Shown here one piece after another: positions 5,499-31,747 of a stretch of DNA of 32,656 nt. Numbering within the stretch: the stretch's first letter is position 1; every line of letters starts with the position of its first letter. Made by a program: the position numbers and the translations under genes. The DNA is taken from the NCBI GenBank assembly GCA_024280855.1, contig JAJRPG010000059.1, positions 1 through 32,656 on the forward strand. Reading direction: 5' to 3'. The DNA is from Planctomycetota bacterium. Lineage in GTDB: Bacteria; Planctomycetota; Phycisphaerae; UBA1845. Under the pieces are notes generated by a model that had not been told where the DNA came from, did not search any database, and worked only from the letters and a program-made list of their open reading frames with translations.

Positions 5499-7292
5499 GT
5501 GGAACGTGAAGGGCTATCTCAATCCGACAGCGCAACGACTGCGGGCTTAGCGCCGCTCAGTCAATACGTTGACGTGAATACGTTGCAGCGGTTACAAGAC
5601 AGCTTCGCCGCGTTAGGTCAGGTGACAGTCTGCATTTGCACCGTTGAAGCGGAGCCGATTACGAAACCCAAGTGGGGCAGTCCTTATTCCCAGTTGATAG
5701 GCACTTCTGATCAGGGGCAGGAAGAATTTCTTCTCGCCTTAAAACGTCGCGCTTTGCAGACCTGTTCCGAAGATGTGGTTTCGTGTCATCACGGCATGAG
5801 CCTTCATGCCTCAACGATTTGTTACGAATCGCAGACGCTAGGCCTCATCATGGTTGGCACGCGATCGCCGTCTCGTCCGTCGGATCATGATGTTCGAGAG
5901 ATTGCAAGCATCTACAACCTGGACGCAAATGCGCTGCTTCAATCGACGTTGACCATCGCGCCATATAGTGGTGGGACGCCAGAGGCGAGTCGGAAGTTTG
6001 CGGATGTCCTAGCCAGCGCTATTGCAACGCTCTATAGCCAAGCTGGGCGAATCGAGCATCAATTAGCCGACCTGCGAGTTGTGCATGACCTGACTAACCT
6101 GCTATCCGGCACGCTGGACCTGCAAGAGGTATTAGATCGAACCGTTCGCCGCGTGGTCGAGGTGATGCCCGTCAAAGCATGTGGCATTCGTCTGCTCAAT
6201 GAGGAAACAGGTGAGCTGGTGATTAAGGCAGTCTGCCATCTTTCTGCCGAGTATTTAGCCAAAGGGCCTGTTCGACTCGGAGAAAACGAGATTGATGTGG
6301 CTGCTTTTGCCGGGGAAACTGTTTACATCGAAGATGCCCCCAACGACCCCCGTAGTCGCTATCCACAAAATACGTTAAGAGAGGGCATTGTTAGTGGGCT
6401 GTGTGTTCCCGTAGCCTATCGTGGAAAAAGCTATGGCGTGCTACGAGTTTATACGGGCGTCAAACACGTTTTTTCCGAGACGCAAAAAAGCTTGCTACGT
6501 TCCATCGGTTCACAAGCAGGGGCCGCGATTGCGAACAGCCAGCTACTTGATGAACATTTACAAGCCAGACGTGTAGAACGGCAAATAGCAAACGCGGCTG
6601 AAATACAGCGACGTATGCTACCGCGCATTCCTCACAATCACCCGCATCTACAATTTGGCTGCGTGTATGAACCGTCGCTTCATCTCGGTGGCGACTTCTA
6701 TGACTTCATCGATTTGCCCGAAGGACGCATTGGCATTTGCGTCGCCGACGTTGTGGGTAAGGGCATCCCAGCCGCGTTGATCATGGCTTCAATTCGATCC
6801 GCCCTGCGCGTACAGGCCCAGAGTGGAACGGATTTGGAGACGACGCTTTCCATCGTGAATCGTCATCTGTGCAGCGAGACACTCTCACGCGAGTTTGCCA
6901 CGCTGGTCTGTGGCTATTTTGAACCTGACGGAAGATGTTTTACCTATAGCTGCGCCGGTCATCCACCCGCGTTGCTGCTTCGCGGCGATAACTTTATTGA
7001 GTTAGACGAAGGGGGCACAGTCATAGGCATCGACGAGTCAGCCTCATTCAATTCTGCTACGCAGTCTATAAAGAAAGATGATTTGTTAGTGTTATATTCC
7101 GACGGCGTATTCGAAGCTATGAATTTCGCCAGTGAAGAATATGGCCCGGAGCGATTGAAAGCCTCCATATGGAATCATCGATCACTAGAGGCAGTAGCTA
7201 TGGCTAAAGAAATTCTTTGGGATGTCCGCCGTTTTGCAGGCCTGGCGGAGCAGTCAGACGACATTACGGTTGTGGTCGTCCGGGCGACTTAG
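5499..7292 (+). CDS. PocR-like/GAF sensor PP2C (SpoIIE/RsbU-type) phosphatase
   Basis: The 597-residue product appears to have three parts. Residues 20-125 look like a divergent PocR-type ligand domain (VDVNTLQRLQDSFAALGQVT onward), but the usual Cys cluster is not intact. Residues 195-350 form a GAF domain (from DLTNLLSGTLDLQEVLDRTV to SIGSQAGAAIANSQLL). Residues 365-597 form a SpoIIE-type PP2C phosphatase with GGDFYDF (397-403), VADVVGKGIPAAL, SDGVFEA and a final SDDITVVVV, which supply the Asp residues for metal binding. Such proteins usually dephosphorylate an anti-sigma-factor antagonist, but no partner kinase or STAS protein lies next to it here. The start is GTG 11 bases after the peptidase stop with only a weak ribosome binding site, suggesting coupling. 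The final 29 bases overlap the opposing SGNH gene. Confidence 0.9.
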   Translation: MEREGLSQSDSATTAGLAPLSQYVDVNTLQRLQDSFAALGQVTVCICTVEAEPITKPKWGSPYSQLIGTSDQGQEEFLLALKRRALQTCSEDVVSCHHGMSLHASTICYESQTLGLIMVGTRSPSRPSDHDVREIASIYNLDANALLQSTLTIAPYSGGTPEASRKFADVLASAIATLYSQAGRIEHQLADLRVVHDLTNLLSGTLDLQEVLDRTVRRVVEVMPVKACGIRLLNEETGELVIKAVCHLSAEYLAKGPVRLGENEIDVAAFAGETVYIEDAPNDPRSRYPQNTLREGIVSGLCVPVAYRGKSYGVLRVYTGVKHVFSETQKSLLRSIGSQAGAAIANSQLLDEHLQARRVERQIANAAEIQRRMLPRIPHNHPHLQFGCVYEPSLHLGGDFYDFIDLPEGRIGICVADVVGKGIPAALIMASIRSALRVQAQSGTDLETTLSIVNRHLCSETLSREFATLVCGYFEPDGRCFTYSCAGHPPALLLRGDNFIELDEGGTVIGIDESASFNSATQSIKKDDLLVLYSDGVFEAMNFASEEYGPERLKASIWNHRSLEAVAMAKEILWDVRRFAGLAEQSDDITVVVVRAT

Positions 7293-8727
7293 CTAGTTGT
7301 GCCACTGAAGCGTCATTTTTCTTGCGATAGATGTCGTCGCGTATTACGGGCAGCATTCGGTCAGCTATTTCGCGAGCAATCAGCTCGTTGCCGATATTGT
7401 TGACATGCACAAAATCCCAATATAGTTCTTTTTTAACGTCATTGAGTACTTGGCTGATGTCAGAGAAATATACGCCTTCTTCTTCCCGACCACCCAACGA
7501 TTCACTAGCCGCCACACCTAGACGGGGATAGGTATATCGTATGTGGTTTAATAGTGGGGTACCAGGTAGGATTTTCTTTTCTACGTTAACCTCATGTTTT
7601 TTATAGACGAAAAGAGGCTGTAAAAAAACAGCCAGCTTTGCGCCGCTGCCCCTACAGACCGTAGCCATGCGCGAAAGATTGTCCCCATAGTTCTGAGCAA
7701 TTTTATCTCGCCAAGGGTCTGTATCGTAACCACATTGCTGACGTAATTGTGCTAACAATTTGCCTCGTGGTGAAAGTATCTCTCCCAGCAAAATACGCAT
7801 GGCACTGCTATGACGTAATAGAGCAATCATGAATTGTTTTGGTTCAATTTGGTGCATTGAAAATCGTTGCTCTATGGCCGATACATAATAGTTATAAGGG
7901 AATCCCGGACGCGGGTCGTAGTCCATGGGCGTGTTTGAATCGTTTGCCCCATTGTAGACAATAATTAAATCTGGATCGAAATCGATAGCTCGATGGGCAA
8001 TAGTCGACAATTCCTGGCCGGATACCCCGGAAACCAAGCCCCAATTATACACCCGCACGGACCGTAATCCCGCCTCGTTAAAGATCGATTCTAATTGGCC
8101 CGGCAATGATTTTTCCAATGGTGAACCCAAAAAAACCGTGGAGCCTCCCAGCATGATAATGCGGTATTCATCTTTATTTTTCTCTATAGTGGGGAGCGGG
8201 CCACGATACCCCAATTCGTTTAACGTAATCGAGTCCGGTGCATCATCACCGCCCATGTGAAATGCCAAACGCACATGATGTGATTGCAGCTTGACTTTGC
8301 CCGAAAAACCTAAGTACGGGTGCGGGGTATTAAATGGCGAATAGAACGGATTGTTGTGTTGGACATGTTGAGCGCCAAGCTCCGACATGATTAGACTGAC
8401 CACGAAGGCTAAGCTTAGCATTCGATTATTCGACCGACCGCCCTTGTATATGATATATATAATAACGCCTATTAACGCGACGAATAAAATACAGACTAGC
8501 TTGTATCTTTTACCATACAGATGAAGCGTGCTAGCCCAATACACACGATGTTGGAGTACTAGTGTAAAAACTAGAAGTACTGTAAATAGCGTAATCAGAT
8601 TGATCAACGCACTGTAGCCTTGCGTTTTCAGCCAGCCTTGGTCTACGCTATCAATAGTCTCGTCGAGTTGTCGAATTGCGAATTCAACCATCCTACGGGT
8701 TATCGGACACGGTGACTCGCTACTCAA
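7264..8727 (-). CDS. Membrane-anchored SGNH/GDSL-family hydrolase
   Basis: Two or three hydrophobic segments (about residues 42-60, 77-94 and 105-118) precede a large extracytoplasmic domain with SGNH blocks: IIMLGGSTVFLG with the likely nucleophile Ser196, the Gly of the NWGLVSGVSGQE loop, YNGAND (Asn262) and a C-terminal WDFVHVNNIG supplying Asp and His. The fold is shared by esterases and O-acetyl transferases or esterases acting on polysaccharides; the substrate cannot be told from sequence. The longest frame begins at TTG 8727 with a weak GAGAT upstream; ATG at 8691 (residue 13) is an alternative, also without a good ribosome binding site. The 3' end overlaps the phosphatase gene by 29 bases on the opposite strand. 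Confidence 0.82.
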   Translation of the reverse strand: MSSESPCPITRRMVEFAIRQLDETIDSVDQGWLKTQGYSALINLITLFTVLLVFTLVLQHRVYWASTLHLYGKRYKLVCILFVALIGVIIYIIYKGGRSNNRMLSLAFVVSLIMSELGAQHVQHNNPFYSPFNTPHPYLGFSGKVKLQSHHVRLAFHMGGDDAPDSITLNELGYRGPLPTIEKNKDEYRIIMLGGSTVFLGSPLEKSLPGQLESIFNEAGLRSVRVYNWGLVSGVSGQELSTIAHRAIDFDPDLIIVYNGANDSNTPMDYDPRPGFPYNYYVSAIEQRFSMHQIEPKQFMIALLRHSSAMRILLGEILSPRGKLLAQLRQQCGYDTDPWRDKIAQNYGDNLSRMATVCRGSGAKLAVFLQPLFVYKKHEVNVEKKILPGTPLLNHIRYTYPRLGVAASESLGGREEEGVYFSDISQVLNDVKKELYWDFVHVNNIGNELIAREIADRMLPVIRDDIYRKKNDASVAQLAKSPGRPQP

Positions 8728-8832: not shown

Positions 8833-9360
8833 CTAAATTGTTTCGGGGATGCTGCTGATACGGCTAGAAAGGTAGTAGGATAGAATGTCTCGCACAGACA
8901 CTATACCACATAGCTTTTTCGCCCGCATGATAGGAATGTGTCTATAGCCTCCGATCATCATCTGGTTGAGCGCGAGGGCGATAGGATCGTCGTGGTCAAG
9001 TGTCAGTGGGTTAGCTGTCATATGCTGGCTAATGTCGTCCTGGCGGCACTTCTCCCATTGCCCAGCCAGCTTTCGCAAGACGTCACGCTCAGTGAAGATG
9101 CCCACTAGCTTGCCATGATCGACGACCACCGCGCAATGATGGCCGCCCTCATTCCACTGGCGAACAGTATCACCGACGGACCATTCTAGCGGAGCCTCAA
9201 TGTAATCTTTAGTGGCTATAGTCTCAAGCGGGCGGTTGAGAAGTGCCCGCTCAATGTCAGATTCCTCAACGGAACCCGTAAAATCTGATAAATCGACTTT
9301 GCAGCGAACGCAAGCGTCAACGCCATCCATATTTTCGCAAGCGCAAAACGGACATTGCAT
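8833..9360 (-). CDS. Zinc-ribbon plus tandem CBS-domain protein
   Basis: The 175-residue product begins with a zinc ribbon (Cys3, Cys6, Cys17 and Cys20 in MQCPFCACENMDGVDACVRC). Two CBS motifs follow: GKLVGIFTERDVLRKL at about residues 82-97 and MTANPLTLDHDDPIALALNQ through GIVSVRDIL to the end. CBS pairs bind AMP, ATP or related ligands and regulate partner enzymes. The ATG at 9360 has AAAGG about 9 bases upstream. The gene is 122 bases downstream of korB on the same strand, and another CBS-pair protein heads the same set, which suggests a link to KorAB; that is inference. The ribbon may mediate protein contacts. Confidence 0.85.
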   Translation of the reverse strand: MQCPFCACENMDGVDACVRCKVDLSDFTGSVEESDIERALLNRPLETIATKDYIEAPLEWSVGDTVRQWNEGGHHCAVVVDHGKLVGIFTERDVLRKLAGQWEKCRQDDISQHMTANPLTLDHDDPIALALNQMMIGGYRHIPIMRAKKLCGIVSVRDILSYYLSSRISSIPETI

Positions 9361-9482: not shown

Positions 9483-9968
9483 TTACTTAACTTCCCATGT
9501 ATCGCCGCCAGCGAACAGGTTTTCCAACGAAGCGTCAGGATTACTCTTTTTCGCTTCATTGATTTGATCTGTCACCATACCTTCGTAGCTGGGTCTTTCA
9601 ATACACCGAAATACGCCCATCGGCTCTGGGAATTCAGGATGGTGCATACGCGACAACAAATACGCCAAGCTAGGCTCGGCTAACTGCTCGTCGTGGAACA
9701 ACAAATCATCTTCCGTGACACCGTCACCCAACTCGACAATTTCAGGGTTCATGCCGTTGAGGCGAATACCTTTTTTCTTCTCTCCACCGAATACGAGTGG
9801 CTTATTGTCTTCGAGATAAAGCGTGGTATCGTTTTTGGTTTCTTTACCCGTGGCATATTGGAAAGCCCCATCGTTAAAGATGTTGCAGTTCTGATAAATC
9901 TCCACAAACGAAACACCCTTATGCTTCGCGGCTCGCTCTAGCACATAAGCCAAGTGCTTCACGTTCAC
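9483..9968 (-). CDS. korB: korB, C-terminal half downstream of the in-frame TAA
   Basis: This 161-codon open part continues in the same frame as the first half and ends in LENLFAGGDTWEVK. The first possible start inside it is GTG at 9968, 27 bases past the stop, with no ribosome binding site, so independent translation looks poor. The sequence contains QNCNIFNDGAFQ (the last cluster ligand) and the PEFPEPMGVFR segment typical of the family. Confidence 0.7.
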   Translation of the reverse strand: MNVKHLAYVLERAAKHKGVSFVEIYQNCNIFNDGAFQYATGKETKNDTTLYLEDNKPLVFGGEKKKGIRLNGMNPEIVELGDGVTEDDLLFHDEQLAEPSLAYLLSRMHHPEFPEPMGVFRCIERPSYEGMVTDQINEAKKSNPDASLENLFAGGDTWEVK

Positions 9969-9995
9969 GTCGATAGTCCGTGCCGCAAACGTAGC

Positions 9996-10505
9996 TTATG
10001 CCCCAATAGCTACCGACAATGGATACAGCGGATAATCCACCGAACCAACCGGCGAGGATTTCGTCCTTTTACCGAACGGCGACGTCGGAGAATACTGTCC
10101 CTTAGTCAAGCCATAGATGCGGTTATTGAATAGCAGGATATTAATATCGAGGTTACGACGAATGGCATGAAGGAAATGGTTCCCGCCAATGCTCAGCGCG
10201 TCGCCATCACCAGTCACCACCCAAACATCCAGCTCTGGGTTCGCTACCTTCACGCCCGTCGCCACAGCCGGCGCTCGACCGTGGATGGAGTGAAAACCGT
10301 AGGTGTTCATGTAATAAGGGAATCGGCTTGAGCAACCAATACCGGAAACGAACACGGTGTTTTCACGAGAGACGCCCAGTGTCGAAAGAACTTTTTTGAC
10401 CTGCGACAAAATCGCATAGTCACCACACCCCGGACACCAGCGAACGTCCTGGTCGCTTCCAAAATCTTTGGCCGTCAATTGAACGGTGGCAGAATCAGCG
10501 CACAT
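9996..10505 (-). CDS. korB: korB, N-terminal half up to the in-frame TAA
   Basis: As written, translation from ATG 10505 gives 169 residues, holding three of the four expected iron-sulfur Cys ligands and the whole TPP-binding motif. AGGAAAG lies about 12 bases upstream of the ATG. If the stop is real, this fragment would lack the fourth ligand and the C-terminal domain that closes over the cofactor, and should be inactive by itself. Confidence 0.75.
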
Positions 10506-10529: not shown

Positions 10530-12428
10530 TTACTTCCCCAACATCTCTTTAATCTTGCTCATAATCTCATTTATCATAAACGGTTTGCCTTGCACCTTAT
10601 TAAAGCCAACAGCGTCAACAAGATATCGGCCACGAATAATGGGAAGCAATTGCCCCATGTTCAATTCTGGAATAAGCACTTTCTTAAACCGACTTAGCAC
10701 CTCACCGGTATTTTTCGGCATGGGGTCCAAATGTCTTAGGTGGGCACTAGAAACCGACAGCCCCTCAGACTGGGCCTTCTCTACCGCCGCAGTAATAGAG
10801 CCAAACGTGCCGCCCCAACCCAATAGCAGTAGGTCGCCAGAGTCTTCACCAAACACTTCTAGCGGCGCGATGAAATCGGCGATGTTGTCAATCTTCTTAC
10901 GACGAGTCTTAATCATGTGCTCATGATTGTTCGGGTCGTAACATACGTCGCCGGTGATGTCTTCTTTCTCAAGCCCGCCAATTCGATGCTGCAAACCAGC
11001 CGTCCCAGGTATCGCCCAAGGACGAGTGAGTTTCTCATCTCTACGATAAGGCTGAAAATCACTATTAGCCGCCGGATGCGTAACGGTAATCGTTGGCAGC
11101 GACGCCACATCAGGAATTTTCCAAGGCTCAGCCCCATTGGCTAGATAACCGTCGCTTAGCACCATGACAGGTGTCATGAATTCCACTGCAATACGAAAAG
11201 CTTCAATCGCTATATTAAAGCAGTCACCCGGACTTTGTGGGGCGAGTACGCACATCGGCGATTCACCATTACGTCCCCAAAGCGCCTGGGCTAAGTCTGC
11301 TTGCTCGGTCTTGGTAGGCAGACCAGTACTCGGTCCACCGCGCTGCACATTGACAATTACCATCGGAAGCTCAGCCATAATGCCCAAACCAATAGCCTCA
11401 GCTTTTAGGGCAATGCCCGGACCGCTGGTTCCCGTAGCCGCGAATACTCCCGCAAAGGCCGCACCTACAACCGAAGCCATCGCCGCGATTTCGTCTTCCG
11501 CCTGAAACGTGCTGACATCATAATTTTTATGACGGGCTAGTTCGTGCAGAATGTCGCTGGCAGGCGTTATAGGATAAGTGCCATAAAATAGTGGTTTCTT
11601 TGCAATCTTCGCTGCAGCGATTAAACCCAGAGCCATCGCTTCGTTGCCAGTTAGCTTGCGATAGCGTCCCGCCTCAATTTTCGCTGGCGCGATGGTGTAT
11701 TTAACCGTGAAAATTTCGGTCGTCTCGCCGTAGTAGTAACCCGCTTTAAGCGTTTTGGTGTTAGCCTCCGCCACTGCGGGCTTGGAACCGAATTTGGAAT
11801 TAATCCAATCCAGTGTTGGCTCCATCGGACGACCATATAGCCAATATACCACGCCTAGAGCGAAAAAGTTTTTGCAACGACCAACGGCTCGTCCGGTTAA
11901 CTCCGTATCTTTGCACGCTTCTGTATTGAGCTTGTCAACCGGAATGCGAAACACGCGGTACTTATCGAGTTCACCTGTTTCCAGCGGGTTATTCTCATAG
12001 CCAGCTTTGGACAGGTTGCCTTTGGTGAACGCATCTTCGTTGACGATGAGTGCGCCGTCACCGTCGAGGTCTGCGATATTAGCCTTCAACGCAGCCGGGT
12101 TCATCGCGATAAGTACGTCAACTTGGTCGCCGGGCGTGCGCAGCTTTTTACTGCCGAACGCCAATTGAAAACCACTGACACCCGCCAGCGTGCCAATGGG
12201 CGCTCGAATCTCAGCCGGAAAGTCTGGCAGCGTACTCACGTCGTTGCCAAAAATCGCTGAGGTATTCGTTAACTGAGTACCCGCCAGTTGCATGCCGTCG
12301 CCAGAGTCACCGCAAAAGCGAACGACTGTGGACTCAAGTCCGACAACTTCAACCTGTCTCTGACCGGAATTTTCTGTTTGGGTCTTAACGACCATATCTT
12401 TACGACACTCCCCGCTCGCGCGACTCAT
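10530..12428 (-). CDS. korA: 2-oxoglutarate:ferredoxin oxidoreductase alpha subunit (gamma-alpha fusion)
   Basis: The 632-residue product is a fused gamma-alpha subunit. The N-terminal gamma domain (about residues 30-210) has VVRFCGDSGDGMQLAGTQL and the DFPAEIRAP segment. The alpha domain follows from GNEAMALGLIAAAK with YGTYPITPASDI, FQAEDEIAAMASVVGAAFAG and GTSGPGIALKAEAIGLG, and ends with the C-terminal pyruvate-ferredoxin-type domain. It binds 2-oxoacid and CoA and works with KorB. Length and order match KorA proteins of aerobic and anaerobic bacteria. ATG 12428 lacks a good ribosome binding site; ATG 12395 (residue 12) has GGGGAG at about 12 bases and may be the true start. The frame is intact, unlike korB. 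Confidence 0.93.
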   Translation of the reverse strand: MSRASGECRKDMVVKTQTENSGQRQVEVVGLESTVVRFCGDSGDGMQLAGTQLTNTSAIFGNDVSTLPDFPAEIRAPIGTLAGVSGFQLAFGSKKLRTPGDQVDVLIAMNPAALKANIADLDGDGALIVNEDAFTKGNLSKAGYENNPLETGELDKYRVFRIPVDKLNTEACKDTELTGRAVGRCKNFFALGVVYWLYGRPMEPTLDWINSKFGSKPAVAEANTKTLKAGYYYGETTEIFTVKYTIAPAKIEAGRYRKLTGNEAMALGLIAAAKIAKKPLFYGTYPITPASDILHELARHKNYDVSTFQAEDEIAAMASVVGAAFAGVFAATGTSGPGIALKAEAIGLGIMAELPMVIVNVQRGGPSTGLPTKTEQADLAQALWGRNGESPMCVLAPQSPGDCFNIAIEAFRIAVEFMTPVMVLSDGYLANGAEPWKIPDVASLPTITVTHPAANSDFQPYRRDEKLTRPWAIPGTAGLQHRIGGLEKEDITGDVCYDPNNHEHMIKTRRKKIDNIADFIAPLEVFGEDSGDLLLLGWGGTFGSITAAVEKAQSEGLSVSSAHLRHLDPMPKNTGEVLSRFKKVLIPELNMGQLLPIIRGRYLVDAVGFNKVQGKPFMINEIMSKIKEMLGK

Positions 12429-12452: not shown

Positions 12453-12920
12453 CTATGCCCCTTCACGAGACGCCGAAAGGCGGCCCGGTTCCGGCGGCAG
12501 GTTGAACACCGCAGCCGGAAAATGTTCCACAACATATTCAACAATTCTTTTGACCGAAACGACTGTTTTCAAAATGCCGGATTCATCAACCACCGGTATA
12601 TGTCGAAAACCGCCATTCACCATCGTTTGGATAACGCCGCCAATTTTCTCGTCGTGGGACGCCACCGTCGCAGGCGATGTCATCACATCTGCAACCGGCG
12701 TGCCAAGCGATACATCGTTGGACAACACTCGACGCAACACGTCTCGTTCCGTGAAAATACCAACCGGGCGATGGTCCTCTGTAACCACCACACAGCCAAT
12801 ACTATGATCTTGTAGGAGGGAGATAGCCTCGCCAACGGTAGCGCGAGGATCAATATCAATAGGGGCACGTTGCCCTAAGGAAGCAATTGTTTCAGAAGCT
12901 AGGTTTTCTCGTAGGCTCAT
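12453..12920 (-). CDS. Tandem CBS-domain protein
   Basis: The 155-residue product is almost wholly one CBS pair: IDIDPRATVGEAISLLQDHS with VGIFTERDVLRRVL, then DVMTSPATVASHDEKIGGVI with FRHIPVVDESG. No DNA-binding or enzyme domain is attached. Such stand-alone pairs sense adenine nucleotides. A GTG at 12932 extends the frame by four codons, but ATG 12920 has GGGTGAG 7 bases upstream and is preferred. It is the first gene of the CBS-korA-korB-CBS set, 24 bases ahead of korA. Its VGIFTERDVLR motif is nearly identical to that of the zinc-ribbon CBS protein at the other end of the set. Confidence 0.85.
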   Translation of the reverse strand: MSLRENLASETIASLGQRAPIDIDPRATVGEAISLLQDHSIGCVVVTEDHRPVGIFTERDVLRRVLSNDVSLGTPVADVMTSPATVASHDEKIGGVIQTMVNGGFRHIPVVDESGILKTVVSVKRIVEYVVEHFPAAVFNLPPEPGRLSASREGA

Positions 12921-13546
12921 TTGCCAACTCACCCAATACGCAAAACGTTAAGTAGTCTATAAAACTCCACGCTTGAAAACAACCCCAATCGCCCTGAAAA
13001 AAATAAGGTTTTTTTGCGGTGTTTTCAACCCACGACCCTCAATAGATGGCTTGTACCATATGCCAAAGATTTTGCCATAGATTCGCGCCAAATTTTCGAA
13101 CATCGCCAAGCCACTAACGCAGGCCCAATTCCAAAATAATGAGGGAGGACTCAGGCTTGCATTACTCTCAACAACCCGTTCATCGGCGTCGCGCAGAGCA
13201 ATAGCAAGATATGACTGAAACTGATTCCGCCGATATTACACCCGGCTATCCCACGTTGAAACTGTCAGACCAAAACCTCAAGTAAGAAATGAACCATAGT
13301 TAGCTTAGCCACTAAATTAGGGGTTCATAAGTCAAAATAGCTACCATTACCGGACGACTGACATATTCGACATTTTTGAGCAGACGCGGATGCCCCATTC
13401 TTTGGGTACTCTCGCAGGGTGGCACGGACATTCAATCACGAATCGCTTCAGCACTTCCAGAAGAGGCTAGCCTTATTAAGGGCTTGCCGCCCGGTGATTC
13501 TACCTTTACGCTTCCGACCGAATATCATTAAGGAAAGGGAGATACT
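12921..13546. other. 626-bp intergenic region between divergent genes
   Basis: The region separates the minus-strand CBS-kor set from the plus-strand PLP enzyme and so should hold both promoters. I see a nested inverted repeat at 12975-13026 and a short palindrome-rich stretch at 13466-13497 (GGCTAGCC, and GGGC/GCCC around TTGCC) before the PLP gene. That leader does not match any SAM- or cobalamin-riboswitch consensus I can recall. Only short open frames occur, for example 24 codons from ATG 13211, with no ribosome binding site. Confidence 0.4.
12975..13026. repeat. Nested A/T-rich inverted repeat upstream of the kor set
   Basis: The outer arms are GAAAACAACC (12975-12984) and GGTGTTTTC (13018-13026), which pair with one bulge. 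The inner arms are AAAAAAA (12997-13003) and TTTTTTT (13009-13015) around TAAGG. It lies 55 bases upstream of the first CBS gene start on the minus strand. A bent-DNA element, an operator or a weak two-way terminator are all possible. Confidence 0.45.
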
Positions 13547-19786: not shown

Positions 19787-21433
19787 ATGGCTGTAAAGCA
19801 GTTGGCCTACGATCAGGAGGCGCGTGAGGCGCTGCGGGAAGGCGTTGAAAAACTCGCCGCCGCAGTCAAATCAACACTAGGTCCAAGAGGCCGTAATGCG
19901 GTTATCGATAAGGGCTGGGGAAGCCCGAACGTCACTAAGGATGGCGTCACGGTAGCTGAGGAAGTCGATCTGAGCGACAAGTATGAGAACTTGGGCGCTC
20001 AATTAGTCAAAGAAGCTGCGAGCAGAACGTCTGAGGTCGCCGGTGACGGTACGACCACAGCTACGGTTCTTGCAGAAGCGATTTTCAAGTTAGGCTTGAA
20101 AAACATCGCGGCTGGGGCTGATGGTTTTGCGATTGGCCGCGGGATTGAAGCCGCCGTTCGCAAGGTTGTCGAAAAGCTGGCTGACATGTCGCGTCCTGTT
20201 CGTGCGAACAAGAAGGACGACATTATCAACGTAGCCAAGATTTCAGCTAACAATGACGAGGTCATCGGCAAGCTTTTAGCCGAGTGCTTCGACAGGGTTG
20301 GCAAGGATGGCGTGATTACGGTTGAAGAGGGTAAGACTTCCGAGACGACCGTTGATGTTGTCGAAGGGATGCAGTTTGATCGCGGCTTTTTGTCGCCTCA
20401 TTTTGTAACCGATCAGGACGCCATTGAATGTCGTCTCGACAAGGCGTTTATTCTCATCCACGAAAAGAAAATCAGCAGCGTGCCAAAGCTTGTGCCGTTG
20501 TTGGAAAAAATCGCCAAGACCAAGCGTCCACTGCTTATTATTTCAGAGGATGTGGAAGGCGAAGCGTTAGCTACGTTGGTGGTCAATAAACTCAAGGGCG
20601 TGCTGCAAGTTTGTGCGGTCAAAGCCCCTGGTTATGGCGACCGTCGCAAGGCGATGCTAGCTGACATTGCTGCCCTCACAGGTGGCACCGCAATCATGGA
20701 AGACCTCGGTCTTGACCTTGAGAAAATTTCGATTACCGATCTTGGCCAAGCTAAGAAGGTTCGCATTGATGCCAACAACACGATCGTAATCGAGGGTGCT
20801 GGCTCAACAGCAGATATTAAATCTCGCATTTCGCAGATTGATTCAGAAATTTCGCTTTCTACATCTGACTATGACACCGAGAAGCTGCAAGAGCGTAAAG
20901 CTAAGCTAGCTGGTGGCGTCGCTCAGATTAACGTGGGCGCTGCGACCGAGTCAGAACTCAAAGAAAAGAAAGCCCGCGTTGAGGATGCGCTTCATGCCAC
21001 ACGCGCTGCTATTGAAGAGGGCATCGTCGTTGGCGGTGGTGTCGCTTTGGTTCGAGCGGCTGAGGTGCTGGATGGCCTCAAGCTTAAAGGCGATCAAAAA
21101 ACCGGGGCAGCGATTGTTCGAGAAGCGATCACGGCTCCTTTGCGTCAGATTGCGACCAATGCTGGCATAAATCCTGGCGTGGTTTTGCATAAGGTGACAT
21201 CGCAAACGGGTGCTTTTGGCTTCAACGCTGACACACTTGAGTACACCGACTTGATGAAAGCCGGTGTGATTGACCCAACTAAGGTCGTGCGTTGTGCGCT
21301 AGAAAACGGCAGTAGCGTCGCTCGAATTTTGTTGAGTACCGATGTATGTATCACTGAAAAGCCTAGCGAAGGTGGCGGTGATGCCGGCATGCCTGGTATG
21401 GACGAAATGGGCGGCATGGGTGGAATGATGTAG
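19787..21433 (+). CDS. groEL: Chaperonin GroEL (paralogue 1, GGM-tailed)
   Basis: The 548-residue 60-kDa chaperonin subunit forms the ATP-driven double-ring folding chamber in the cytoplasm. Catalytic Asp52 ([10 protein letters not shown]) and Asp87 ([13 protein letters not shown]) and the later Asp in [11 protein letters not shown] are present. The C-terminus [15 protein letters not shown] is the flexible Gly-Met tail found in most housekeeping GroELs. ATG 19787 has GAGGAG about 9 bases upstream. It is followed after 105 bases by groES and then a second groEL. The presence of the tail suggests it is the general-purpose copy, which is inference. Confidence 0.97.
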
Positions 21434-21538
21434 TCGCCGTATAGCGAGGTTGGTGCGAGTTGCATCGCCCGCGTGTTTTGACGGCTTAATAATATAGAGC
21501 AACGAGTTAATACTTTCCGAGACGGAGACTATTTAGAT

Positions 21539-21859
21539 ATGGCAACAGCAACAGCAAAGAAAACGAAGATTAAATTTCAGCCTATGGACGATCGGGTATT
21601 GGTCGAGCCTTGCAAGGCGGACGAGGTGACATCTGGCGGCATCATTTTACCTGATGCAGCCCGTGAGAAACCACAGCGTGGTAAAGTTGTCGCGACTGGT
21701 CCAGGCCGGCTTCTCGATAGCGGCAATCGCGGCGAGATGTCTGTTTCGCTTGGCGATGAAGTGTTTTATGGCAAGTATGCGGGCACCGAAGTTGATTTGG
21801 ATGGTGCCGATCAGTACGTCGTGATTCGTGAAAACGACATCCTGGCGATCGTGGACTGA
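21539..21859 (+). CDS. groES: Co-chaperonin GroES
   Basis: The 106-residue 10-kDa cap subunit has the mobile loop VTSGGIILPDAAREKPQRGK, which contacts GroEL, the domain start FQPMDDRVLVEP and the end YVVIRENDILAIVD. A Lys/Thr-rich extension of about ten residues precedes the conserved domain. GGAG lies 11 bases before the ATG. It sits between the two groEL genes, 105 bases after the first and 57 before the second. A single GroES may serve both rings. Confidence 0.96.
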   Translation: MATATAKKTKIKFQPMDDRVLVEPCKADEVTSGGIILPDAAREKPQRGKVVATGPGRLLDSGNRGEMSVSLGDEVFYGKYAGTEVDLDGADQYVVIRENDILAIVD

Positions 21860-21916
21860 ATTGAATAATGTCGCGTAACGCTTTTTGGCGGCGCGATTAA
21901 GATAGGAGATTGGTCG

Positions 21917-23527
21917 ATGGCCAAGCAAATGATGTTTTCCCAGGACGCCAAGCGCGAAATCCTGGAAGGGTTGGGCAAACTCGCCCGAGCGGTCAAGGTC
22001 ACGATGGGACCGACAGGCCGAAATGTTATGTTACAAAAGTCGTTTGGCGCTCCTAGAGCGACCAAAGACGGCGTGAGCGTGAGTAAGGAAGTTGAACTTC
22101 CCTCACCATTTGAAAATATGGGCGCCAAGCTCATCAATCAGGTAGCGACCAAAACTTCTGATATGGTGGGTGATGGCACGACGGCTGCGACTGTTCTTGC
22201 GGAAGCTATTTTCCGTGAAGGCTATAAGACCGTAGCCGCCGGTGCGAATCCCATGGCTGTTAAGCGCGGTATCGAGAAGGCTGTCATCGCAGCTGTTGAG
22301 TCGATCAAAGAGTTATCCGTAAAGGTTCGCTCGAATGATGACCTGGCTAAGGTGGCTACGATCTCAGCCAATGGCGACGAAGCCATTGGTAAGCTCCTGG
22401 CTAGTGCGATGGACGCTGTCGGTAAAGACGGCGTGGTTGAAGTCGAAGAGGGCGATGCCCTTGTGACTGAAAAAGAAGTCGTTGAAGGCATGCAGTTTGA
22501 TAAGGGGTATTTGTCTCCTTACTTCATGTCTGATCCAGGGTCATTGGAATGTGTTTTAAGCAATCCGTTGATTTTGATCTACGAAAAGAAAATTTCTAAC
22601 CTGCGTGATTTTGTGCCGGTACTCGAAGCGGTATCCACAGCTGGTAAGTCTTTGTTGGTTATCGCAGAAGATGTCGAAGGCGATGCACTCGCTGGTCTGG
22701 TTGTGAACAAGATGCGTGGCGTGCTTAAATGCTGCGCGATCAAGGCCCCGGGCTTTGGTGATCGACGCACAGCTATGCTTCAAGACCTCGCAGCTGTTAC
22801 GGGTGGTAAGGTTATCAGTGAAGACCTTGGTATCAAGCTCGAAAGCGTGACAGTTTCGGACATGGGCACAGCTAAGAAGATTGTCATCACCAAGGACACC
22901 ACCACGGTGATTCAGGGCGCTGGCAAGAAGTCTGAAATTACCGCTCGCTGCGAACAAATTCGTAGCCAAATTGAGAAAAGCACCAGCGATTACGATAGTG
23001 AAAAGTTGCAAGAACGATTGGCGAAGCTCACGGGCGGTGTAGCTGTCATTCGTGTGGGTGGTGCTACTGAAATCGAAGTTAAAGAACGCAAAGATTTGGT
23101 TGATGATGCATTTCACGCAACCAAAGCAGCTGCGGAAGAAGGCATTGTGCCTGGCGGTGGCGTCGCATTTTTGCGGGCTATCGACTCGGTAAATAAAGTG
23201 CGTGACAAGGCTCGCGGCGACGAGAAAATCGGCGTTGAGATTATCGCTAAAGCGCTTCGCGCTCCGACCACACAGATCGTGGCTAACAGCGGCCTAGAAG
23301 GTGAAGTGATTGTCGAGCAAATCCTCGAAAAGAAGGGAGCCTATGGCTTCGATGCTCGTAAGGGCGAATTCGTGGATATGATTAAGGCTGGCATTATCGA
23401 TCCTGCGAAGGTGTCACGTGTCGCGTTGGAAAGTGCAGCTAGCGTCGCTGGTTTGATGCTGACGACGGAAGTCCTTCTTACTGATGTGAAGGATGACGAT
23501 CAGGATATCGAACACGCTGTCCGATAG
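21917..23527 (+). CDS. groEL: Chaperonin GroEL (paralogue 2, no GGM tail)
   Basis: The 536-residue second chaperonin subunit keeps ATPase residues Asp51 ([10 protein letters not shown]), Asp86 ([12 protein letters not shown]) and the later Asp in [11 protein letters not shown]. The C-terminus is [14 protein letters not shown], acidic and without the Gly-Met repeats, unlike the first copy. In bacteria with several GroELs, copies that lost this tail often have specialised clients. AGGAG lies 8 bases before ATG 21917. groES is 57 bases upstream, and a strong terminator follows 28 bases after the stop, so groES-groEL2 form the classical pair. Confidence 0.97.
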
Positions 23528-23555
23528 AGATAATATCGACTGGATATGAGGCAAG

Positions 23556-23580
23556 AGGCGGACCGGTGTGTCCGCCTTTT
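23556..23580 (+). terminator. Rho-independent terminator after groEL2
   Basis: GGCGGAC (23557-23563) pairs perfectly with GTCCGCC (23570-23576) around CGGTGT, with an extra A-T pair at the base and a TTTT run. It closes the groEL/groES transcription unit. Confidence 0.85.
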
Positions 23581-23669
23581 GCTTTCCAGTTTAGTGTGAG
23601 TGATGGTGAAGTCGTGCGTGTCACGACGGATTCATAAATATAATTCTTGCTCTTGAACAAGGCGAGGCC

Positions 23670-24800
23670 ATGCCTGCAACAGGCGGTAAACGCGATTTTT
23701 ACGAAGTGCTAGGCATCTCCCGCGATGCGTCTGCCGAGGCTGTCAAGAAAGCCTATCGGCGTAGTGCGCATAAACATCATCCCGACCGCAACGACGGTAA
23801 CCCCGAATCCGAAGCAAAATTCAAAGAAGCTGCGGAAGCGTATGAGGTTTTATCCGACCCCGCAAAGCGTCAGCAATATGACCAGTTTGGCCATGCTGGT
23901 TTGGGCGGGGCGGGTCTTCACGATTTTAACCATATGCAAACGGATGACATCTTCTCGATGTTCTCCGATATTTTCGGTGGCTTTGGCGGCGGCAGAAGAC
24001 GAAGCCGAGGCACTGACCTGCAAACCCAGGTCGAATTGACGCTGGCAGAAGTGGCTGAGGGCGTTGAGCGGTCTATTGAATTTAATAGAAACGATCTTTG
24101 CGAAGGCTGTAGCGGAACAGGCGCGGCTCGTGGTTCTGACCGGACCACTTGCACGACCTGTGGCGGATATGGGAAAGTTGAGCAAACCGGCGGGATGGGG
24201 TCATTGTTTGGTCGTGTGATTACGGCCTGTCCTGCGTGCCACGGTCAAGGCACTTTGATTACGACGCCTTGTAGTGATTGTCGCGGTTCAGGCCGAGCGA
24301 CGAAACGCCGGCTAGTGAATGTCCAGATACCTGCGGGTATTCATGACGGACAAGCCGTGCGGGTGCGCGGCGAGGGGGAACCTTCTTCAGATGGCGCGGC
24401 ACGCGGCGATTTACATTGCTACGTTAGCGTGAAAGCGCATCCGTTTTTGCAGCGGCATCAAAACGATTTGGTTTGTGCCATGCCTTTAAGCTTCACCCAG
24501 GCCACTTTAGGCGTCAACGTGGAAGTGCCTACGTTGACGGGGAAAGCTGATCTAAAAATCCCAGCAGGGACGCAGCATGGCCAAATGTTTCGGTTGAGAG
24601 GCATAGGTTTGCCAGATTTGCGCAGCGGCCGAAAGGGTGACGAGCTGGTGCAGGTGTTTATTGAGATTCCCAAAAAGTTAAACAAAAAGCAGCAGCAATT
24701 GCTACGCGACTTCGCCGAAACGGAAGATGTATCCGTATTGCCGGAGTCGAAAGGCTTTTTTGATAAAGTGATGGAATACATTAGCGGCGATGAAAAATAA
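23670..24800 (+). CDS. dnaJ: Chaperone DnaJ
   Basis: The 376-residue type I J-protein stimulates DnaK ATPase and delivers clients. The J domain at residues 8-72 contains HPD (37-39). A Gly/Phe-rich linker (FGGFGGGRRR) follows. The zinc domain has four repeats: CEGCSGTG (144), CTTCGGYG (161), CPACHGQG (187) and CSDCRGSG (201). The C-terminal substrate domain ends at about 355. Length and order are standard. AAGG and GAGG precede the ATG. It begins a second chaperone unit after the terminator, and grpE follows by 33 bases. No dnaK is in the window. Confidence 0.97.
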   Translation: MPATGGKRDFYEVLGISRDASAEAVKKAYRRSAHKHHPDRNDGNPESEAKFKEAAEAYEVLSDPAKRQQYDQFGHAGLGGAGLHDFNHMQTDDIFSMFSDIFGGFGGGRRRSRGTDLQTQVELTLAEVAEGVERSIEFNRNDLCEGCSGTGAARGSDRTTCTTCGGYGKVEQTGGMGSLFGRVITACPACHGQGTLITTPCSDCRGSGRATKRRLVNVQIPAGIHDGQAVRVRGEGEPSSDGAARGDLHCYVSVKAHPFLQRHQNDLVCAMPLSFTQATLGVNVEVPTLTGKADLKIPAGTQHGQMFRLRGIGLPDLRSGRKGDELVQVFIEIPKKLNKKQQQLLRDFAETEDVSVLPESKGFFDKVMEYISGDEK

Positions 24801-24833
24801 TCGCATCAAGGCTGATAAAGTATAATCGAAGAT

Positions 24834-25484
24834 ATGATGAAAAAAAACCGTCACCCATCCAATGATTCGAGCAACGACGCTAATGCGCCGGAAGATATCA
24901 TCATCGACGATGATACGGCCAAAGCTAGTGCAACTGGGGATGCAGAAATTATTGATTCAGCCGAGACTCTCACTGATGACGGCGGCGTTAGCGAAGAATC
25001 TGATCTATCGCCGGAAGCACGCATCGAGGCATTACAGAATAAAATTGCCTCATTAGAAGACGCTTTGTTGCGAGGTAAAGCTGAAGCGCAGAACGTACAG
25101 CGTCGCGGCGTGCAACAACGTCAGGATGCTATTCGATTTGCCAATGCCGATTTGATGAAGTCGATGCTAGGCGTAGTGGATGATTTTCAACGGGCTATCG
25201 AAGCTGCGTCCAAGAGTGACAACGTCGCGTCAGTAGTTGATGGTATCAAGTTGGTACACGAAAATTTTATGAAGGCGATGACCGAAGCTGGGCTATCGCC
25301 GATTGAGGCTGTGAATCAGCCATTTGATCCGCATGTCCATGAGGCGATGCTGCAACAGCCTTCGGATAAGCACGAGCCGGGCATGGTGATAGAAGAGATT
25401 ACGAAAGGCTTCAAGTTGCACGATCGCACCTTACGGCCCGCACGCGTGATTGTCTCCAAAGCTGTGGACGAGCCATCATCGTAA
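24834..25484 (+). CDS. grpE: Nucleotide exchange factor GrpE
   Basis: The 216-residue product has a disordered, acidic N-terminus (about 60 residues rich in Asp, Glu, Ser and Ala), a long coiled coil from EARIEALQNKIASLEDALLR with ENFMKAMTEAGLSPI, and the beta domain with FDPHVHEAMLQQPSDKHEPG and LHDRTLRPARVIVSK. GrpE releases ADP from DnaK. Two adjacent ATGs are possible (24834, 24837); neither has a strong ribosome binding site. A perfect -10 hexamer TATAAT lies 8 bases upstream, but no matching -35 is seen. It is 33 bases after dnaJ on the same strand. Confidence 0.95.
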   Translation: MMKKNRHPSNDSSNDANAPEDIIIDDDTAKASATGDAEIIDSAETLTDDGGVSEESDLSPEARIEALQNKIASLEDALLRGKAEAQNVQRRGVQQRQDAIRFANADLMKSMLGVVDDFQRAIEAASKSDNVASVVDGIKLVHENFMKAMTEAGLSPIEAVNQPFDPHVHEAMLQQPSDKHEPGMVIEEITKGFKLHDRTLRPARVIVSKAVDEPSS

Positions 25485-27429: not shown

Positions 27430-28911
27430 TTAGCGACTATTGGCTAACAGTTTACAGATACGATCCTGAATAGCTTTGTATGGCGTACTCGAACTTTTAT
27501 AGCCATTAAATATCATACCAAATGAAAGACGTCTGCCGGACTTGGTATCGACATAGCCTGATAACGCACTGATGCCGCGCATTGTTCCCGTCTTGCCGCG
27601 TAATACTGTCTTCAACTTTTTCATTCGTTTTCGCAACGAGCCAGTTTCACCTGGTACGGCTAAGCTTTGCCAAACCAATTCGCCCACAGATTGCTGATGT
27701 AATCGCATGAGCGTATCGGCTAACTGTCGCGCGGAGCAGCGATTTTTTCGACTAAGGCCTGAACCGTCGGAAACGATTAGTCCGGCTGTGTTGACGCCAG
27801 TCCGTTTGAGAATTTCCTGCACCGCTTGAGAGCCAGACTTCCACGAACCGCTAGCATAGCCCAGTCCGTTGCGCATCGACCTTTCGACGCCAAGGCGTTT
27901 TAGCAAACATTCCGCAAACAAATTTTGGCTGTTTTTACCAATGCGGCTAAGAATATCAGCCATGCTGGTTTGGTGAATGTCTAGTACGAACACTTCGGGC
28001 GAGAGTTGGCCATCGTCTTGCCTCATGTGTTGATGAACCAATTGCCCCGCGAATTCGATTCCCTTTTTTTGAAGCACCGCGCGAAAAGCATCAGCCGTCA
28101 AAGCCGCAGGGTCAGGGAATGCGACAGGTCCAAAGGGCCAGCGTTTTTTGCATCGACCGGAAATGCGATAGTCCCATGTGCCCGGCGGGTGATGTAATAT
28201 GGCTTTGCCTTTGCCGCCGCTGCGACATTTATTGATGATTTGGGCGAGGGCGTTATCGGGAATGATGTTCACTAACGCCGGTGAGCCGGACGCCGCCGGC
28301 CTGATGGTAATGTCCAGGCAGTTGTCGTTAATGTTAAGTCCGCTGACCGGAGCCGCGTACCATTTGCCAAGGTCGGATTTTTCCCAGGCGGGGTGGATGG
28401 TTTGCTGATCGAAAATCGAGGCGTCGATCACAATGTCGCCTTGAATAGTCGTCATGCCCCGTTGGATTAGAACATCCGCCCACCGCTCGAAAACGCTGGT
28501 GACAGATTGGTTCAGCGCCTTAGCTAGGACCGGGTCACCAAAGCCGGGATCGCCGCTGCCGATGATGTAAACGTTAGAGCCATCGGTCCCCAGCATCGTG
28601 TCGAAGGTGAAGCTTGGGCCTAACTCTAGAATACCAGCCGCCAACGTAAACACCTTCATCGTACTCGCGGGGATCATCGCTTTGTCAGCCTGGTGTGCGA
28701 ACACCGTTTCGCCAGTAGCGACATCCAACACGCAAACCCCGGCGATAGCCTTAGCATGTGGCATGTTAGCAATGGCTGATCGTATCGATCGATCAAGAGG
28801 AATCTGAGCGTAGGCAATGGATGAGAAAGCAGCGAAGCAGCATAACACCAAAAACGAGCCGCGGGCTTCAGTCCGCGCGGACTTGCGGTGGTTTAATTCG
28901 CTCAGAGGCAT
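27430..28911 (-). CDS. dacB: D-alanyl-D-alanine carboxypeptidase/endopeptidase (PBP4, S13)
   Basis: The product has all three penicillin-binding motifs in S13 order: the catalytic Ser and Lys in IPASTMKVFTLAA, the SxN motif in IGKNSQNLFAECLLK and KTG in LRGKTGTMRGISALSGY. The large insert between the first two motifs is typical of DacB. It trims or opens peptidoglycan cross-links in the periplasm. ATG 28911 places a signal peptide (RGSFLVLCCFAAFSSIAYA) near the N-terminus and leaves room for a promoter facing the OleC-like gene, so I used it (493 residues). ATGs further upstream extend the frame to 29007 without a ribosome binding site. Confidence 0.9.
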   Translation of the reverse strand: MPLSELNHRKSARTEARGSFLVLCCFAAFSSIAYAQIPLDRSIRSAIANMPHAKAIAGVCVLDVATGETVFAHQADKAMIPASTMKVFTLAAGILELGPSFTFDTMLGTDGSNVYIIGSGDPGFGDPVLAKALNQSVTSVFERWADVLIQRGMTTIQGDIVIDASIFDQQTIHPAWEKSDLGKWYAAPVSGLNINDNCLDITIRPAASGSPALVNIIPDNALAQIINKCRSGGKGKAILHHPPGTWDYRISGRCKKRWPFGPVAFPDPAALTADAFRAVLQKKGIEFAGQLVHQHMRQDDGQLSPEVFVLDIHQTSMADILSRIGKNSQNLFAECLLKRLGVERSMRNGLGYASGSWKSGSQAVQEILKRTGVNTAGLIVSDGSGLSRKNRCSARQLADTLMRLHQQSVGELVWQSLAVPGETGSLRKRMKKLKTVLRGKTGTMRGISALSGYVDTKSGRRLSFGMIFNGYKSSSTPYKAIQDRICKLLANSR

Positions 28912-29057
28912 TCGAGCGTGAACACTTTTTGATTGTTTTTGTAATGATTTATTCAAGGCAGTTTGCATCAACATCGACACCAGTAAGTTACACCTGTATA
29001 GTCTCATCGGCCAACGACCGTTTTGTGTTACAGCCCAATATCAAAGGCTTGAAAATC
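28912..29057. promoter_or_regulatory. Divergent intergenic region between dacB and oleC
   Basis: About 146 bases separate the chosen starts. It should contain promoters for both directions, but no convincing pair was identified. Both genes have longer open frames into this region, so the exact borders are uncertain. Confidence 0.3.
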
Positions 29058-30758
29058 GTGGTAGCAACAACAGACACGCTCTCCTCTCACCGTGACGCTA
29101 ACATACAGAAAACGTGCAACGTCGCCAACCATCTTCCCAGGATGGCCCAAGAAATGCCCGATCACCCGGCTGTGGTGGTCACGCAATCTCGTGACGCGCA
29201 CGGCAAGGCTATCTACAAAACCTTGTCATTTGCGGAATTAGAAGCTCTCTCCAATCGATACGCCAATGGCTTACGGACTGCGGGTTTTGCGCGTGGACAT
29301 CGCGTACTCATGATGGTTAGGCCTGGCGTGGAATTCGTGGGCTTAGCCTTCGCGATGTTTAAGCTTGGCGTGGTCCCGGTCATGATTGATCCGGGCATGG
29401 GCGTTAAGCGATTGTTGGACTGTGTCAGGCAAGTTGATTTGCAGGGCTTTATTGGGATTCCTCTTGCCCATGTGGTTCGGCTGATAAAGCGACGTTCGTT
29501 TGCTGGTGTGAAGCATAACGTAACGGTCGGGCGACGATGGATGTGGGGCGGTTATAGCCTTGGTCGATTAGCGGAAAGCGCTTCGCCTACTTTTTCTCCC
29601 GTACCTACGCTCGATTCAGAAGTAGCTGCGATTCTTTTTACTTCCGGAAGTACAGGCCCGGCTAAGGGCGTGGTGTACGAGCATGGCATGTTTGATGCAC
29701 AGGTCCGTATGATTCAAAAGCAATATGGGATTGAGCCAGGCGAAGTTGATTTGCCGGCGTTTCCACTTTTCGCTTTGTTTAGCACAGCCATGGGCATGAC
29801 TTGTGTGATTCCTGATATGGCCCCGTCCAAGCCATCGCAGGTGAACCCGGCTAATATCGTAGAAGCGATTGAAGATCACCATGTGACCAATGCGTTTGGC
29901 TCGCCAGCGATTTGGCGTCGGGTCGCGGATCATTGTGCGCAACAACAAATTACGCTGCCATCGCTTCGACGCATTCTCATTGCTGGTGCGCCGGTATCTT
30001 CGCAGGTGATTCGCACGATGCGCGGTGCGCTAACTGATGGTGCGGATATTCATACGCCATACGGAGCCACGGAATCTCTCCCGGTAGCTTCTATTTCAGG
30101 GTTAGAGGTCGTTGACGAGACTGGCTCACAAACTATTCGCGGCGCTGGGACGTGTGTGGGTAAGCCATTGCCCGAGTCAGAGGTTCGTATTATTGGTGTG
30201 ACAGACGAGGCGATTGAGACTTGGTCGGATGGTTTGTTGGTGCCACAAGGTACGCGCGGCGAGCTTGTGGTGCGCGGGCCTATGGTGACGAAATGTTATT
30301 TCGCTCAGCCCAAAGCTACGGCGCGTGCGAAGATAGTTGACAGCGAGACATTTTGGCATCGCATGGGAGATGTCGGTTATTTTGACGAATCAGGCAGGCT
30401 ATGGTTTTGTGGAAGGAAGTCGCAACGGGTGGTCACACAAGTCGGGACGTTGTACGCCGATCAATGCGAGGCTGTTTTTAATGAGCATCCAGACGTGGTG
30501 AAGAGCGCACTTGTCGGCGTAGGAAATTTTGGGCAACAGGAGCCTGTGTTGGTTGTTGAGACACCGCCCGATCGGTTTCCCGCGGGTTCGCGCGTGGATT
30601 CTTTTTGCAAAGAGCTTCGAGCGTTGGGCGAGGCTTGTGATCTAACACGCGACATTAAGCGGTTCATGTTTCATAAATCATTACCCGTTGATACGCGACA
30701 CAACGTCAAGATTGGCCGGGAATCGCTAACCGCTTGGGCGGAGGCGCGTTTATCATGA
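29058..30758 (+). CDS. oleC: OleC-like acyl-adenylating enzyme (ANL superfamily)
   Basis: The 566-residue product has ANL motifs: the P-loop ILFTSGSTGPAKGVVYEHGM, PYGATESLP, MGDVGYFDESGRLWFCGR and a C-terminal catalytic Lys (DTRHNVKIGRESL). The segment CNVANHLPRMAQEMPDHPAV at the start and DPGMGVKRLLDCVRQVDLQG are characteristic of OleC-type enzymes, which use ATP to close a 2-alkyl-3-hydroxy acid into a beta-lactone during long-chain olefin synthesis. The frame is open another 79 codons upstream, but GTG 29058 has AAAGG 10 bases before it and begins just ahead of the conserved region. The stop overlaps the next start by ATGA. Confidence 0.82.
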   Translation: MVATTDTLSSHRDANIQKTCNVANHLPRMAQEMPDHPAVVVTQSRDAHGKAIYKTLSFAELEALSNRYANGLRTAGFARGHRVLMMVRPGVEFVGLAFAMFKLGVVPVMIDPGMGVKRLLDCVRQVDLQGFIGIPLAHVVRLIKRRSFAGVKHNVTVGRRWMWGGYSLGRLAESASPTFSPVPTLDSEVAAILFTSGSTGPAKGVVYEHGMFDAQVRMIQKQYGIEPGEVDLPAFPLFALFSTAMGMTCVIPDMAPSKPSQVNPANIVEAIEDHHVTNAFGSPAIWRRVADHCAQQQITLPSLRRILIAGAPVSSQVIRTMRGALTDGADIHTPYGATESLPVASISGLEVVDETGSQTIRGAGTCVGKPLPESEVRIIGVTDEAIETWSDGLLVPQGTRGELVVRGPMVTKCYFAQPKATARAKIVDSETFWHRMGDVGYFDESGRLWFCGRKSQRVVTQVGTLYADQCEAVFNEHPDVVKSALVGVGNFGQQEPVLVVETPPDRFPAGSRVDSFCKELRALGEACDLTRDIKRFMFHKSLPVDTRHNVKIGRESLTAWAEARLS

Positions 30759-31747
30759 AAACGCTCGTCACGGGTGGTGGTGGTTTTCTGGGTAGCCACA
30801 TCGTTAAATTGCTTTGTGATCGAGGTGACGAGGTCGTGGCACTAGGGAGAAACAAATACCCGGCTATTGAACAAATGGGCGCGCGGGTGGTGCAAGCTGA
30901 CATTCGTGATAACGCTGCGATGCGTGATGCGTGCATAGGGATGGATGCCGTATTTCATGTGGCTGCGCTGGCTGGTATATGGGGGAAGCGGCGAGACTTT
31001 TGGGAAATAAATGTAGAAGGCACAGCTAATGTTATAAATGCGTGTCGCGCGGCGCAGGTTCCCAAACTCATTTATACAAGTTCGCCGAGTGTGGTTTTTG
31101 GACGCGAGTCGCTTTGTGGTGTGAACGAGTCGCAACCTTACCCGAAGCGATACGTCGCTCATTATCCGCATACCAAAGCCGTGGCTGAGCGCGCGGTATT
31201 AGCTGCGAATTCCGCAAATTTAGCCACCGTTGCGATTCGACCGCACATGATTTGGGGGCCTGGCGACCCGCATTTAATCCCGCGCGTCATCGCCCGAGCC
31301 AACGCCGGCCGGCTTAGGCAGGTGGGTGACGGAAAAAATTTGGTAGATATTACATATATCGACAACGCCGCTCGCGCTCATATTCAGGCCGCGGATGCGC
31401 TGTCTGAAAAAAATGCCTGCGCAGGCCGAGCCTATTTTATTAGTCAGGGTAAGCCGGTGAGTTTGTGGGATTGGCTGGGCGATTTGCTTGAAAAACTCAA
31501 CATCGATAGGCCAGGAAAGCGTGTTCCGTGGCGATTGGCCTATTATTTGGGAGCGGTATTAGAAGCTATATATGCCACCTTGAGGCTGTCCGGTGAGCCG
31601 CCAATGACTCGATTTGTCTCGCTTCAATTGTCTCAGTCGCACTATTTTGATATTTCAGCCGCGAAAAAAGATTTTGGGTATGAGCCAGTCGTCTCGACAA
31701 ACGAGGGGACCGAGCGACTTCTTGCATGGTTACAAAGTGGGAAATAA
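30755..31747 (+). CDS. oleD: OleD-like NAD(P)-dependent 3-beta-HSD-family reductase
   Basis: The 330-residue product is a short-chain extended reductase: Rossmann start MKTLVTGGGGFLGSHIVKLL, YTSSPSVVFG, catalytic Tyr and Lys in HYPHTKAVAERAV, and IRPHMIWGPGDPHLIPRVI. It matches OleD, which reduces 2-alkyl-3-ketoalkanoic acids to the 3-hydroxy acids used by OleC. ATG 30755 overlaps the upstream stop (ATGA), with GGAGG about 10 bases before, so the two are translationally coupled. Other 3-beta-HSD activities are possible from the family alone; the adjacent OleC-like gene favours the olefin-type role. Confidence 0.85.
   Translation: MKTLVTGGGGFLGSHIVKLLCDRGDEVVALGRNKYPAIEQMGARVVQADIRDNAAMRDACIGMDAVFHVAALAGIWGKRRDFWEINVEGTANVINACRAAQVPKLIYTSSPSVVFGRESLCGVNESQPYPKRYVAHYPHTKAVAERAVLAANSANLATVAIRPHMIWGPGDPHLIPRVIARANAGRLRQVGDGKNLVDITYIDNAARAHIQAADALSEKNACAGRAYFISQGKPVSLWDWLGDLLEKLNIDRPGKRVPWRLAYYLGAVLEAIYATLRLSGEPPMTRFVSLQLSQSHYFDISAAKKDFGYEPVVSTNEGTERLLAWLQSGK

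Follow-up and report, generated by a model that had tools for sequence, protein, structure and literature searches.

The korB gene of the planctomycete genome analysed here carries a single in-frame TAA at codon 170, and among the genomes compared this stop is private to it. The gene lies in a window of 32,656 nt, the whole stretch of DNA that was analysed, which is contig 83 of a 112-contig draft genome of 4.56 Mb. The reading that we favour, at somewhat better than even confidence, is that the TAA is a consensus or assembly error or an unfixed strain variant.

The korB reading frame and its genomic context

korB is encoded on the minus strand and its whole frame spans positions 9483-10505. 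It starts with an ATG at 10505, runs for 169 codons (9999-10505), is interrupted by the TAA at 9996-9998 and continues in the same frame for 170 sense codons (9486-9995) up to its regular terminal TAA (9483-9485). The TIGR02177 profile matches the first piece (169 aa) with E=3.5e-62 and the second (170 aa) with E=8.2e-7, and the TPP-binding domain PF02775 is found in the first piece (E=1.5e-26). With an X placed at the stop, the protein has 340 residues, aligns over its full length to both same-genus orthologues (92%) and matches the solved 2-oxoacid:ferredoxin oxidoreductase beta subunits 5b46, 6n2n and 8ys5. Its match to TIGR02177 then reaches E=4.8e-76 and 256.0 bits, slightly below the cut-off of 261.9. 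Neither frame reading nor alignment to relatives reveals a further stop, frameshift or gap in the second half. A chance open frame is unlikely, because the alignment to KorB continues through 170 codons past the stop. The one uninterrupted frame of the KorB family is broken here by the TAA at codon 170. The first-pass annotation had described exactly this arrangement, with both halves in one frame and korA intact, and frame reading and profile matches confirm it.

The same annotation had listed four retained cluster cysteines. Cys24, Cys27 and Cys58 are located in the first piece and the fourth, Cys207, in the piece after the stop; we take them to be the cluster cysteines, in line with solved OFORs. 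All four are Cys in 110 of 110 KorB loci, the present one included.

As is usual for the KorB family, the alpha-subunit gene korA adjoins korB directly upstream. It is intact (10530-12428, minus strand, 632 aa) and its product exceeds the TIGR03710 cut-off, with 656.6 bits compared to 482.75. Domain scans place CBS-domain genes on both sides of korAB, one adjoining korB (8833-9360, minus strand) and one adjoining korA (12453-12932, minus strand), and both are found at the same places in the two same-genus genomes (G001 and G002; the present genome is G000). A regulatory link of these genes to KorAB is possible. Further along, positions 7264-8727 hold an ORF of 487 aa that matches no Pfam or NCBIfam model and shows similarity to the syntenic stretch of G001 over only 45 residues (62%; L034:16305-16439). 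What is presumably a chaperone cluster is located at 19787-25484, where two different GroEL-like genes flank a GroES-like gene, followed by DnaJ-like and GrpE-like genes. At 28821-31747, a gene of the fatty acid CoA ligase family (NF006754, over cut-off) adjoins a 3-beta-HSD/epimerase gene. Olefin beta-lactone synthetase models match the ligase gene below cut-off, and the pair may possibly belong to an olefin-type pathway.

Distribution of the stop and selection on korB

The stop was sought in three overlapping sets of KorB sequences, each of which includes the present genome. It occurs in one of 50 near-full-length matches among 60 genomes, in one of 82 matches at E <= 1e-100 (found in 81 of 248 genomes of the class) and in one of 110 loci that were read codon by codon, each time in the present genome. 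The 110 loci comprise 30 from the 60-genome search and the best 80 of 576 named loci, with at least one record probably present in both subsets. The same stop in independent relatives, which the first-pass annotation had regarded as a mark of recoding, is thus not seen in the KorB alignment.

Of the 110 loci, 77 have Glu at site 170, 17 have Gly, 15 have some other residue and one has the stop, so that the site appears to be tolerant in KorB at large. Among the 27 family and order relatives it is always Glu. Both same-genus genomes, in which korB is intact, have a Glu codon that differs from TAA at one position, and this agrees with the earlier suggestion that the stop replaces a single residue through one base change.

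A second unusual residue is found close by. Codon 174 (9984-9986, minus strand) encodes Ala, where all 27 family and order relatives have Val; Ala is found in three of the 110 loci, the present one included. When residues are restricted to those that are rare (in at most two of the other 109 loci) and absent from both same-genus genomes, only the stop and Ala174 are left, and V174A lies within 13 bases of the stop. The pair could reflect a locally poor consensus or a gene that is beginning to decay.

Substitution rates were compared on either side of the stop site. In the comparison of the present genome with G001, the part before the stop has a dN of 0.0105 and a dS of 1.17, and the part after it a dN of 0.074 and a dS of 2.2. 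The two intact genes, G001 and G002, give dN values of 0.0079 and 0.064, so that the post-stop dN of the present gene is near that of the intact pair. Both halves of korB therefore appear to be held by selection. Derived residues, polarised against the 27 relatives, number 11 in the present KorB (the stop and 10 after it), four in G001 and six in G002; those located after the stop number 10, four and five. KorA served as a yardstick and has 16, 13 and 18 derived residues in the same three genomes (492 columns). The counts suggest a slight excess of derived residues in the present korB that is not decisive. Even on the assumption that all 10 post-stop changes are neutral, which corresponds to about 0.025 per nonsynonymous site, we estimate the age of the stop at only a few per cent of that of the lineage. 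Since the part of korB after the stop lacks pseudogene-like decay, the stop is either very recent or not real.

Origin of the stop codon

The TAA is most likely unfixed, being either a consensus or assembly error or an allele of a minority strain that found its way into the consensus. Cells of the living population would in that case produce normal KorB of full length, which would pair with KorA in the ferredoxin-dependent oxidation of 2-oxoglutarate within the TCA cycle; for the reads, we infer a sense codon at this site. The stop is private and young, KorAB is the sole enzyme of its kind found, and the assembly is a draft of 112 contigs. The position of the stop and V174A within so few bases of each other is what a poor consensus patch would give. 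On the other hand, the 10 post-stop derived residues, compared to four and five in the same-genus genomes, would also result from mild relaxation, and the assembly is not obviously error-ridden.

The latter point is based on a sample of 349,023 bases from the present genome, the window included, in which a codon model flagged 15 possible in-frame stops. Among these, korB alone is clearly a split gene; the others were judged by eye to be gene junctions, antisense frames or unresolved cases. Applied to 341,074 bases of G001, the codon model again flagged 15 candidates, with one possibly split hexapeptide-repeat gene. The samples each amount to about 7.6% of the respective genome, and the korB region was included because its stop had been noted beforehand, which makes the resulting rate a loose one. 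A few such split events per genome would fit either an error or a mutation. In a tblastn comparison of the present sample against that of G001, five of 15 ortholog-like pairs have a stop within the match; one of these is korB, and in the other four the start was judged to be over-extended. With query and target exchanged, 16 pairs were obtained, none of them with a stop. In each direction, one pair matched in several pieces. The overlap between the two samples is too small for this comparison to be used. Two loci were seen along the way. In G001, a short hexapeptide-like frame (L159:12380-12745) continues past an in-frame TAG at 12608. In the present genome, two TPR-like ORFs of 431 and 566 aa (L130:6870-9863) share one frame with a single TAA at 8163 between them, and these are either adjacent genes or a split gene.

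A templated mutation at a nearby repeat was considered as the source of the stop. Within 120 bases, the stop base is part of one inverted and one direct match, each 7 bases long; a G at this position gives matches of 4 and 5. When 1530 single-base changes were tried throughout korB, a length of 7 was reached by 8.0% for inverted and 8.5% for direct matches; among the native positions, the figures are 2.9% and 12.1%. V174A displays no nearby-repeat pattern in the same test. The repeats are suggestive at most and a templated origin is not claimed.

A real, very recent and fixed null mutation is the main alternative, a credible one to which we nevertheless give distinctly less weight. KorB would then end after 169 residues, with Cys207 lost, and this route of 2-oxoglutarate oxidation would cease, leaving an open TCA cycle or other 2-oxoacid oxidoreductases to cover the step. 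The TAA is plainly present in the assembly. The larger number of derived residues after the stop and the change of the otherwise constant Val174 are in line with such a loss. In addition, the genome retains a PorAB-like pair (L002), for which the best models are those for branched-chain 2-oxoacids and pyruvate, both below their cut-offs, and an enzyme that we take to be NifJ-like (L003).

The remaining gene content argues against such a loss. The only TIGR03710 match over cut-off in the genome is korA itself, and neither a second korB copy nor a strain variant on another contig was found. TIGR00239 (SucA/kgd) has no match in the present genome, G001 or G002, and matches seven of 14 control genomes; SucB-like matches occur in all three genomes, all below cut-off. 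The backup enzymes that the first-pass annotation had pointed to, a second korB or another 2-oxoglutarate dehydrogenase, were thus searched for in this genome and neither turned up. No enzyme predicted to oxidise 2-oxoglutarate was found besides KorAB, whose own substrate is predicted from sequence. Citrate synthase (two copies), one gene of the isocitrate dehydrogenase family and SucC are all intact, as is korA. Loss of KorB would be expected to open the TCA cycle, because no other 2-oxoglutarate-oxidising enzyme was found and the other TCA genes sought are intact. Moreover, the second half of korB has no additional damage, and even with 10 neutral changes the stop would have arisen only in the final few per cent of the lineage's history. 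Among relatives, three alpha-subunit (TIGR03710) matches below cut-off (G004:C50:29831-30970, G010:C1:482833-483936 and G012:C201:5188-6318) are listed with one stop each, although these matches may run past a gene end.

Readthrough or recoding, in which the ribosome inserts a residue at the TAA and full-length KorB is made, is highly improbable. The conserved sequence beyond the stop would suit it, and the RNA around the stop, which can form a stem across it, is predicted to fold more stably than most shuffled versions (z = -2.71). However, the same stretch pairs differently in G001 (z = -2.44) and G002 (z = -1.52), so that no conserved stimulatory structure was found at the stop across the three genomes. 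According to a passage in PMC5289835, tRNA-Gln misreads UAA in E. coli, but UAA is also given there as the least read through of the three stops. The 26 hand-listed genes of the window end in TAA (12), TAG (8) or TGA (6), with TAA closing both korA and korB. Reassignment of TAA, already dismissed in the first-pass annotation, is rejected on the basis of these 12 terminating codons. Similarly, no suppressor tRNA was found: none of the 44 typed tRNAs has a UUA, CUA or UCA anticodon, in a survey that scored all but 20 of 170 first-look candidates and typed all but one of 45 RF00005 matches, the exception being truncated by the end of its contig, in a genome about 96% complete. The stop also occurs in no relative compared. 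Recoding at the korB TAA has no support and, within the tests made, the genetic code is standard. Of the three options raised initially, sequencing error and fresh null mutation are retained; readthrough is not, given the unshared stop and the lack of a stop-reading tRNA among those typed.

Just as improbable is a split enzyme, in which translation would restart at an in-frame GTG (9968) nine codons past the stop and yield a 161-aa piece that joins the 169-aa piece, since no ribosome-binding-like sequence is seen by eye before this GTG and the other 109 of the 110 loci read straight through the break region.

Implications and comparison with known systems

Returning to the favoured error or unfixed variant, its main bearing is on annotation. 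Automated gene calling would report KorB as two fragments, or korB as a pseudogene, and would conclude that the TCA cycle is open, a conclusion that may hang on a single base of the consensus. Should the stop prove real and fixed, korB would show cleanly how loss of the TCA cycle begins in a lineage for which no backup enzyme was found. That the only 2-oxoglutarate-oxidising enzyme has just been lost through a real and fixed stop and the opening of the cycle is starting, or, much less likely, that UAA is read as an amino acid, is together considered unlikely.

Known kinds of stop-codon recoding are selenocysteine, pyrrolysine and programmed readthrough. The present korB resembles them in its in-frame stop with a conserved frame beyond, but differs in that the stop is TAA rather than TGA or TAG, is unshared and is accompanied by no stop-reading tRNA among the 44 typed.

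KorB of 2-oxoglutarate (2-oxoacid):ferredoxin oxidoreductase (TIGR02177/PRK11866; 5b46, 6n2n, 8ys5) aligns with the present protein over the length of the family and shares the TPP domain, the four cysteines and korA upstream. The present gene differs from it by the TAA at codon 170 and, in score, by 256.0 bits compared to the cut-off of 261.9.

Single nonsense codons and consensus errors occur in draft genomes. The present case is like them in having one stop in one genome, intact relatives and a gene that is otherwise undamaged, and differs in the second rare change, V174A, 13 bases away. The lone korB stop appears to be an assembly error or a freshly broken copy, with no new reading of the code.
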